A stretch of DNA of 64,000 nucleotides from Dethiosulfovibrio faecalis (GTDB taxonomy: Bacteria; Synergistota; Synergistia; Synergistales; Dethiosulfovibrionaceae): NCBI RefSeq assembly GCF_021568795.1, contig NZ_JAKGUE010000010.1, positions 1-64,000 of the forward strand, in the 5' to 3' direction. The notes beneath the pieces are model-generated. The model did no database searches. It worked only from the letters and a program-made list of their open reading frames with translations, and was not told where the DNA came from. Positions 14,968 to 17,023 of the stretch are shown in pieces. The translations under genes and the position numbers were made by a program. The first letter of the stretch is position 1; every line of letters begins with the position of its first letter.

Positions 14968-15351
14968 TTAGAATCCTGCGAGGATCTGCGTTATATAGCC
15001 GATGAGGAATTGTGAAGCAACGTTATCCACCAGCTTTTCTGTCACCTTGCGCAGCTTGTCATATCGGCGAGAAGATCTTTCTATCTCAAAAAGCCTTTCG
15101 ACGTATTCGATTCCAGCATTGGTTATCTTAACCTTAGAGGTTCGGACGACTACTGGGAACGCTTCCTCCCCCGCAAAAACCATAACAGCGTCCCTGATAT
15201 ACTCCTCATTCTCGAGTTTGCAGATCGCCACGTTAAAAACCTGAGAATCGATCCCAATAGACTCGGGGCTGATGTTCTCCATTTGAGGCAGGTCTTTTTG
15301 GTACTCTGCATATATCGCCGCCAGGACAAGCTCTTTCGTTTCAAGCTTCAT
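14968..15351 (-). CDS. YjcQ-like small phage protein (winged-helix-like)
   Basis: 127 aa. The first part (KLETKELVLAAIYAEYQKD) and the following segment with VAICKLENEEYI and KITNAGIEYVERLFE resemble YjcQ-type phage proteins with a winged-helix fold. It ends in a hydrophobic segment (LIGYITQILAGF). The gene is flanked by two terminator hairpins, so it can be expressed as its own unit. It sits just downstream of MuF and the 65-aa gene, a place where MuF phages carry immunity or accessory genes. A regulator is the other option. Confidence 0.5.
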   Translation of the reverse strand: MKLETKELVLAAIYAEYQKDLPQMENISPESIGIDSQVFNVAICKLENEEYIRDAVMVFAGEEAFPVVVRTSKVKITNAGIEYVERLFEIERSSRRYDKLRKVTEKLVDNVASQFLIGYITQILAGF

Positions 15352-15373
15352 TGCGACTCCTCCTCTTTAGAAC

Positions 15374-15403
15374 AAAAAAAGCCCCTCATGAAAGAGAGGC
15401 TTT
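15374..15403 (-). terminator. Rho-independent terminator after the small MuF-linked gene
   Basis: The minus strand reads AAAGCC, then CTC, a short loop, GAG, GGCTTT and a T run (15374-15380). It lies between the 65-aa gene and the YjcQ-like gene. Together with the hairpin at 14910 it brackets the YjcQ-like gene. Confidence 0.65.
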
Positions 15404-15408
15404 ATCAC

Positions 15409-15606
15409 TCAGTATGAAAAGGCGTCTATCTCCTTTTTAGAAAGAGAACTCGTAGCCCTCCCTTGACTTTCACACCATCGAGCAAGATCTCGAACTCGTA
15501 TGTGTGGAGCAGCCCCCCGAGAATCCATGGTTAAACGCCCATCGGCAAGTACTTTGTCCAAAGTACCATATTCTTTTATGTACTTGACAACTTTTGTGTC
15601 AATCAT
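15409..15606 (-). CDS. Small protein linked to the MuF GNAT-like domain
   Basis: 65 aa from the ATG at 15606, which has GGAGG seven bases upstream. It overlaps the last bases of the MuF gene, so the two are translationally coupled. It starts MIDTKVVKYIKEYGTLDKVL and contains a central RVRDLARWCESQG. There is no signal peptide or membrane segment. It is not a known family to me. Tight coupling to the variable C-terminal domain of MuF suggests a partner, possibly an immunity protein or regulator of that domain. Confidence 0.6.
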   Translation of the reverse strand: MIDTKVVKYIKEYGTLDKVLADGRLTMDSRGAAPHIRVRDLARWCESQGRATSSLSKKEIDAFSY

Positions 15607-17023
15607 CCTGGACCCTCCTTCCATGCATATACGTATCTATCAATTTTCTGGCAGAAGATTCGTCGATAAACATCCGAGTGGAGTTACCGAGCTGCTTCGC
15701 CCCCAGCTTATCACGATAATGATCGATAAGATTCGTCTTTGATTCAAACGCAACGAATCCCTCAAATCCTTTTTCTTCGCTCAGCTGAGCCGCTATCGCA
15801 AAAAGATGCGCTCCTACCCCTTCCATTTTACCATTTTTACCTATGTTGTGAGGTGCAGACTCAGCCAGATGCACATAAACGCACCCTCCGCTTGGCTGAG
15901 GTTCCAAAGAAACTAATCCCTGGATCTCATATTCACCTTCCAACGTGAGCTGAATAACCTCTCGGCCTTCACCAAGTTCCTTTTCCCAATTGAACTTCCA
16001 ACCTTTTTTCTTCAAAGCCTTCAGGTTAGAAGGGGTCGCCGGGGAGAACTCGGTTTCTACCTTTTTGCCTGTAGCTCTAAACAAAAGACACGACGTCAAG
16101 CTATCGATCACGATATCGATATTCTTCATACCAGTCATTTTACCATTAAAACTTAGCACGCTCCTAACTGCCTCTATATCTATCGGTCGCTGTGTGGAAT
16201 CCGGCAATCTATCTATCCTGGTGTCTTCCTCTATCCCATCCGGGAACTCCTCCGCCGTCAGGGGGAGGAGGACACTCCGACAATTGGGATGGAGAGGCGG
16301 CGTGTTGTGTGCAAGCCGTGGGTCATTTATGCGGAAGCGCATTCCTTCCCTGGCGTGGCATATCTCCGAGGTCCGGCTATCCAGTACCGCAGAAAACTCA
16401 AATCCAACCACGGCCTCCGAGTCTATCGCCGACCGGAGAGACCCCATGGAATAGGCCCTCATCGCCTCGGTCCTGGATATGCACTCCAGTCGACTTCGGG
16501 CGAACCTTGAAAGTTGGCGGTTGACTCTCCCCAGTTCCGTCGCAGTCAAACTATTCGTCACGCCTTCCCGCAAGGATCTGGAGATAACCTCTCGGACCTC
16601 TTCCAGGACGGCGTTCTCGTATACTCTCGCCAGCTCTGGAACATACCGGTCAAGCCAAGACAACGCCTCTTCCGGTAACACATCGTTCCAGTCGTCCGAC
16701 AGGGAGACAGTCTTCGTTATCTCCCGGATTGTTCTTTTGCTTTGTCTGTATCCGGCCTCTACCGCGTTACGCATCCCGGACATGAGAGCTTTCTCTATCT
16801 CTGGCCCGTTGTCCCCCATGGGGATGCCTCCGTCTTTACCTTCCTTGACTGCCTTATCTATCCAGGGCTTTACCGCCTTCCATGCTTTCGCCGTGACGTG
16901 CTTCCATAGCCTGGCATGGGTTCGCCCTGTCCGTCGGAGGGCCTTTACTCTGGCTTCGAGGGTGTCATTTCGCTCTCCTTGCTTCCAGCGAGAGAGTTGT
17001 TCCGCAAAAGTCTGGACCGCCAT
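15599..17023 (-). CDS. MuF-type minor head protein with C-terminal GNAT-like domain
   Basis: 474 aa. Residues about 80-260 form the phage MuF (SPP1 gp7) minor head domain: a helical region, then LECISRTEAMRAYSMG and the LHPNCRSVLLPL zinc-like motif at 244-255. MuF proteins ride in the virion near the portal and can enter the next host with DNA. After a linker, residues about 299-466 form a separate alpha/beta domain with GVGAHLFAIAAQL (402-414) and LIDHYRDKLGA (432-442), like the acetyl-CoA loop and the late YxKLGF helix of GNAT acetyltransferases. The activity and target of this domain are unknown. The gene overlaps the portal gene by 79 bases. Confidence 0.8.
   Translation of the reverse strand: MAVQTFAEQLSRWKQGERNDTLEARVKALRRTGRTHARLWKHVTAKAWKAVKPWIDKAVKEGKDGGIPMGDNGPEIEKALMSGMRNAVEAGYRQSKRTIREITKTVSLSDDWNDVLPEEALSWLDRYVPELARVYENAVLEEVREVISRSLREGVTNSLTATELGRVNRQLSRFARSRLECISRTEAMRAYSMGSLRSAIDSEAVVGFEFSAVLDSRTSEICHAREGMRFRINDPRLAHNTPPLHPNCRSVLLPLTAEEFPDGIEEDTRIDRLPDSTQRPIDIEAVRSVLSFNGKMTGMKNIDIVIDSLTSCLLFRATGKKVETEFSPATPSNLKALKKKGWKFNWEKELGEGREVIQLTLEGEYEIQGLVSLEPQPSGGCVYVHLAESAPHNIGKNGKMEGVGAHLFAIAAQLSEEKGFEGFVAFESKTNLIDHYRDKLGAKQLGNSTRMFIDESSARKLIDTYMHGRRVQDD

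Follow-up and report, generated by a model that had tools for sequence, protein, structure and literature searches.

The window analysed here, 64,000 nucleotides of Dethiosulfovibrio faecalis (assembly GCF_021568795.1, contig NZ_JAKGUE010000010.1), holds a prophage head gene whose product is most probably a MuF-type phage polymorphic toxin. Judged from sequence comparison and structure models, its swappable C-terminal cassette would comprise an unnamed GNAT-fold acyltransferase domain and a cognate immunity or antitoxin gene for a protein of about 65 amino acids (aa). We favour this reading because orthologous MuF genes have naturally exchanged the cassette for Ntox50 with a 72-aa gene or for an ADP-ribosyltransferase with a 93-aa gene, because the domain has a predicted GNAT fold with a conserved acyl-CoA loop, and because the small-gene family adjoins the domain and is not found elsewhere in the loci. 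A tree of the domain, which needs 14 or more switches between the free-standing and the fused state, argues for the same reading, as do the carriers, which include MuF, Phage_min_cap2 and VG15. So does precedent: a small open reading frame (ORF) typically follows MuF toxins (PMC5576092), and in one class the Apk2 domain, toxic in E. coli, is blocked by the product of the downstream gene (PMC12226406).

A MuF head gene with an exchangeable C-terminus

The gene (15599–17023, minus strand) encodes 474 aa. Pfam places a MuF domain (PF04233) at residues 142–252 (16268–16600, minus strand; E-value 4e-17), as a sequence-only reading of the locus had claimed, and PHROGs and NCBIfam agree in assigning the ORF to head-morphogenesis or minor-capsid proteins. 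It lies between a portal-like ORF (18195–16945) and other head genes. The terminase, portal and capsid genes are syntenic with those of sister prophages by blastn, which places the MuF domain in a head-gene context. The prophage appears temperate, since an integrase-like ORF adjoins a tRNA-Gln gene and a repressor-like helix-turn-helix (HTH) ORF is present, both recognised by eye; MuF toxins belong to temperate phages (PMC5576092).

The same MuF gene is present in two genomes of the genus (G003 and G004), with identities of 71% and 69% across residues 1–279. Their C-termini are Ntox50 domains (PF15542; E-values 9e-7 and 9e-10, both passing the curated cutoff), followed by a gene of 72 or 71 aa that is unrelated to the 65-aa gene. 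Against the closer of these loci, blastn aligned 19585–16155 at 81.5%, left a gap, and restarted at 15351 at 72.7%. Apart from the GNAT-fold domain and the 65-aa gene, the interval without similarity (15352–16154, minus strand) contains no gene, and we regard it as the swapped cassette. Similarity to the sister MuF genes runs out at residue ~290 (window position 16155), close to the internal MTGMKNIDIV where the domain had been proposed to begin; free-standing relatives start there as well, with (M)KLDILIDKLTPCL. The YjcQ-like protein (15351–14968), which the sequence-only reading had offered as an alternative partner, did not hold up: it is the first conserved gene past the gap in G003, where it stands beside Ntox50 as a constant flank (86.6% identical), and it is missing beside the Ntox50 version of G004.

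A further replacement was found in Fusobacterium. Phage phiPaco and its close kin encode a MuF-GNAT protein with an overlapping 58-aa gene. Phages with MuF N-termini 92–98% identical to that of phiPaco have an ADP-ribosyltransferase (PF03496, best E-value 7e-25) instead of the GNAT domain, with an overlapping downstream gene of 93 or 94 aa. The alignments make this a second swap, independent of the one in Dethiosulfovibrio. Thus, as judged from the compared sequences, the C-terminal domain varies among near relatives, with known toxin domains in its place, and a small, putatively immunity-encoding gene downstream changes along with the toxin domain. Two MuF genes of the window's order (L153, 1045–3024, and L154) have C-termini with HExxH motifs that look metallopeptidase-like by eye, which is further evidence that the MuF C-terminal slot varies.

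Predicted fold of the C-terminal domain

From about residue 296 onwards, the protein had no match in Pfam, PHROGs, NCBIfam or the PDB sequences, and a PADLOC search for defence systems returned no match. Sequence searches did not connect the domain directly to Pfam GNATs or to PDB chains; the weak phmmer matches (E-value 0.34) and profile matches (E-value about 0.5) were noise. With 91 aligned relatives as input, AlphaFold2 modelled the C-terminal ~170 residues with a mean predicted local distance difference test (pLDDT) of 88 and a predicted template modelling score (pTM) of 0.84. Only residues 1–15 and 174–179 of the 179-residue model were poorly modelled (domain numbering; adding 295 gives the residue in the full protein). 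When Foldseek was run against the PDB, its 50 top-ranked matches were all GNAT-type acyltransferases (E-values down to 2e-5, probability 1.00). They include Gcn5, Rv0998, PaiA, AtaT, TacT and KacT, and among the matches listed AtaT (6ajm_B) had the top template modelling (TM) scores, 0.58/0.64. The suggested GNAT-like fold is thereby borne out at the level of the model, and the motifs that prompted it, GVGAHLFA and HYRDKLGA, both fall within this distinct domain.

The conserved core spans residues 302–468 (15620–16120, minus strand), including the acyl-CoA loop GVG (residues 402–404) and the conserved Tyr436. In domain numbering, W47, G74, P96, N98, G107, G109, H111–A114, A147 and Y170 are invariant in the 91 sequences, and conservation reaches 90% or more at D12, T15, C17, E93, V108, K134 and Y141. 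G107-V-G109 lies at the start of helix 108–122 of the model, the position at which GNATs hold the pyrophosphate of acyl-CoA. GNATs usually employ a catalytic Glu and a general-acid Tyr, and by topology, without residue superposition, E93 and Y141 would occupy these sites. Few parts of the family are as well conserved as the N-terminal sequence IDxLTPCL (residues 302–313, window 16085–16120), whose Cys is nearly invariant. It begins within the low-confidence stretch of the model and may be a contact for the partner or the target.

The small downstream gene

The 65-aa gene (15409–15606, minus strand) overlaps the stop of the MuF gene by 8 nucleotides (nt). Its strong ribosome-binding site, AGGAGG (15614–15619, minus strand), read from the sequence, lies 7 nt before the ATG within the last MuF codons. 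Because of this arrangement, translation of the small gene is likely coupled to that of the MuF gene. The conserved C-terminal part of the small proteins approximates YxxRAxxxYCKxxGxxxxxLTxxExxxF.

Counting near-copies, 147 domain-bearing loci were analysed. An ORF of at least 35 aa starts between −40 and +60 nt from the domain stop in 145 of them, and in the other two the domain stands at a contig end. A profile of the small gene from which the window's protein had been left out matched directly downstream of the domain in 130 of the 147 loci and recovered the window's 65-aa protein with an E-value of 2e-9. Over 21,949 six-frame segments, all its matches lay directly after the domain, the window's own copy aside. 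This association and the joint swapping substantiate the proposal that the 65-aa protein is the partner of the domain, and we consider it the immunity or antitoxin candidate. None of 63 partner proteins matched DUF1778 or DUF4065 in Pfam. A ribbon-helix-helix (RHH) assignment was rejected, as it came from a single short sub-threshold match that is absent from the other 62 members.

Distribution of the module and grafting onto head proteins

We searched for relatives with the degenerate motif GVG[AG]HLFA[IE], adding a second motif for viral contigs; in a 12-sequence alignment, diversity was too high for a pattern search. Confirmed relatives comprise 344 stretches in GTDB species genomes and 44 loci in viral contigs, with record titles from Bacillota, Spirochaetota, Fibrobacterota, Bacteroidota and Synergistota as well as Fusobacterium phages. 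Since relatives occur in hundreds of genomes, the domain is not a chance ORF. Single-protein scans of viral contigs, with either the domain or the window's MuF N-terminus as query, gave no match. The domain occurs both alone and on other MuF proteins, the two settings in which the sequence-only reading had proposed to look for it, and many of the relatives are two-gene modules that stand free. Free-standing copies were found by tblastn on plasmids of Paenibacillus, Treponema, Streptococcus and others, most with a small gene directly after them, and the flanks of 18 free-standing copies were mostly ordinary chromosomal genes.

Among 28 fused proteins, Pfam recognised Phage_Mu_F in 15, Phage_min_cap2 in nine, VG15 in three and a portal domain in one. 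Five of the free/fused changes on the domain tree (74 sequences) are forced by well-supported branches. The nearest kin of the window's domain are free-standing copies (48% identity to L087), which fits the earlier idea that a free-standing protein was joined onto the MuF protein. A mirror-tree test among MuF-fused copies was too noisy to part cassette from carrier. The fusions share a junction peptide, [STGNDE][GSD]I[IMVL], present in 19 of 28 against 0.08 expected per 58 residues. It often reads SGII or NGIM, across unrelated head families (e.g., L106, L110, L130 and L139), and it also precedes other toxin domains, namely in the Fusobacterium ADP-ribosyltransferase versions L163–L166. Possibly, it is a processing site or a recombination scar.

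Proposed mechanism and alternatives

If the protein is a polymorphic toxin, the MuF part would put a few copies of it into the virion head, and the GNAT domain would pass into the next cell together with the DNA. There it might acylate a host component, most likely a charged tRNA or a translation-linked protein, by analogy with other GNAT toxins; those of toxin-antitoxin systems acetylate aminoacyl-tRNA (PMC9177977). Such acylation could slow competitors or favour lysogeny, while the 65-aa protein, made by coupled translation, would prevent the domain from acting in the lysogen that makes it. We also lean towards a broader view, in which the module represents a very widespread new toxin-antitoxin family with the GNAT toxin gene first and a non-RHH antitoxin second. 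Phages would have captured it again and again and attached it to three or more unrelated families of head proteins, so that a pair that acted inside the cell became a toxin carried by the virion, complete with immunity.

Several observations weigh against the polymorphic-toxin reading. The TM-scores to GNATs are moderate (0.4–0.6), and the putative catalytic residues are assigned from topology only. The structure model of the small protein has low confidence (pTM 0.42), too uncertain for a fold search. A profile-level small gene is lacking in 17 of the 147 loci, most of which still have some small ORF there. Lastly, a few relatives of the small gene lack the domain; L181 (1470–1712) and L182 (2619–2822), given in reverse-complement coordinates of two G147 contigs, have no adjacent GNAT gene and could possibly be orphan immunity genes.

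Among the alternatives, the one that fares best, though we consider it unlikely, is that the virion delivers a helper and not a toxin. The acyltransferase would then modify host proteins or disarm defence early in infection, as is thought for T4 Alt and the RimI-like GNATs of polyvalent proteins, with the small protein as chaperone or regulator. Location in the virion is compatible with such a role, and protein modification is the predicted function of the GNATs in phage polyvalent proteins (PMC5512222). However, in orthologs the same slot holds a known toxin, either Ntox50 or an ADP-ribosyltransferase, each of which comes with an unrelated small gene of its own, and the pair also stands free in ordinary chromosomal surroundings, which makes little sense for a phage helper. 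Less probable still, the cassette would serve the prophage mainly as a toxin-antitoxin (addiction) module inside the cell and would happen to ride, undelivered, on the head gene: the same two genes do occur free-standing on plasmids and chromosomes, but the repeated in-frame grafts onto at least three head-protein families, always C-terminal after the head domain, argue for selection on the virion link. That the domain is a structural element of the head protein, with no effector function, is barely credible: MuF proteins are head components, many with C-terminal extensions of unassigned role (PMC5576092), but constancy of the domain, named beforehand as evidence against an effector, is excluded by the Ntox50 in the same slot of sister MuF genes whose other head genes are conserved, and the domain also occurs without any head gene, the small gene travelling with it.

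Relation to known systems

The polymorphic-toxin reading places the window's gene among the MuF polymorphic toxins (PMC5576092), such as Apk2 of a Streptococcus pneumoniae prophage (PMC12226406). Like them, it has a MuF N-terminus within a temperate-phage head cluster, a variable C-terminus and a small downstream gene, and its orthologs carry a known toxin domain, Ntox50. Unlike the surveyed members, which are nucleases, peptidases, ADP-ribosyltransferases and RelA-like proteins with no acetyltransferase among them, its C-terminal domain has a predicted GNAT fold. The GNAT toxins of type II toxin-antitoxin systems (AtaT, TacT and KacT) share this fold, with AtaT the closest among the structural matches listed, and they share the two-gene arrangement with a small partner when the window's domain family is free-standing. 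However, the window's domain has no Pfam-level similarity to them and is often fused to phage head proteins, the small gene follows the domain whereas the antitoxin gene comes first in the AtaT/TacT family, and the partner is neither DUF1778 nor DUF4065. As partner family and gene order differ, the module does not, on present sequence evidence, appear to be a member of that family.

The GNATs of polyvalent proteins likewise belong to proteins that phages or conjugative elements are believed to inject, and solo versions exist (PMC5512222). Their two families stand beside ADP-ribosyltransferase domains in gammaproteobacterial phages or in type IV secretion system elements, and unlike the window's domain they are described neither on MuF proteins nor with a dedicated downstream small gene (PMC5512222). 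Neither "GNAT" nor "acetyltransferase" occurs in the main text of the 2017 MuF survey (PMC5576092), and beyond its two other GNAT contexts the polyvalent-protein survey (PMC5512222) contains no MuF-GNAT toxin. The accessible part of the 2012 polymorphic-toxin survey describes none, and a further search of the available literature found no such description. What is new is the putative toxin type and the partner family, within the known MuF polymorphic toxins. If the reading is true, an acyltransferase class would be added to the phage-delivered polymorphic toxins, and two protein families that are outside Pfam, NCBIfam and PHROGs, yet occur in hundreds of species, would gain names. The natural swaps of GNAT against Ntox50 or ADP-ribosyltransferase on head proteins that resemble each other closely provide matched phages for testing injection and action of MuF toxins directly.

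Other contexts of the domain

Two further settings were observed. In a Bacillota metagenome-assembled genome, the domain forms the C-terminus of a long protein in which no head domain can be recognised (L026, a 665-aa frame), which represents another carrier type. On alphaproteobacterial plasmids, distant relatives of the domain lie in an RHH - GNAT - HTH - ImmA/IrrE cluster (L020, 2810–5075, and L022, 2690–4945) that directly adjoins a cyclic-oligonucleotide-based anti-phage signalling system (CBASS) operon.
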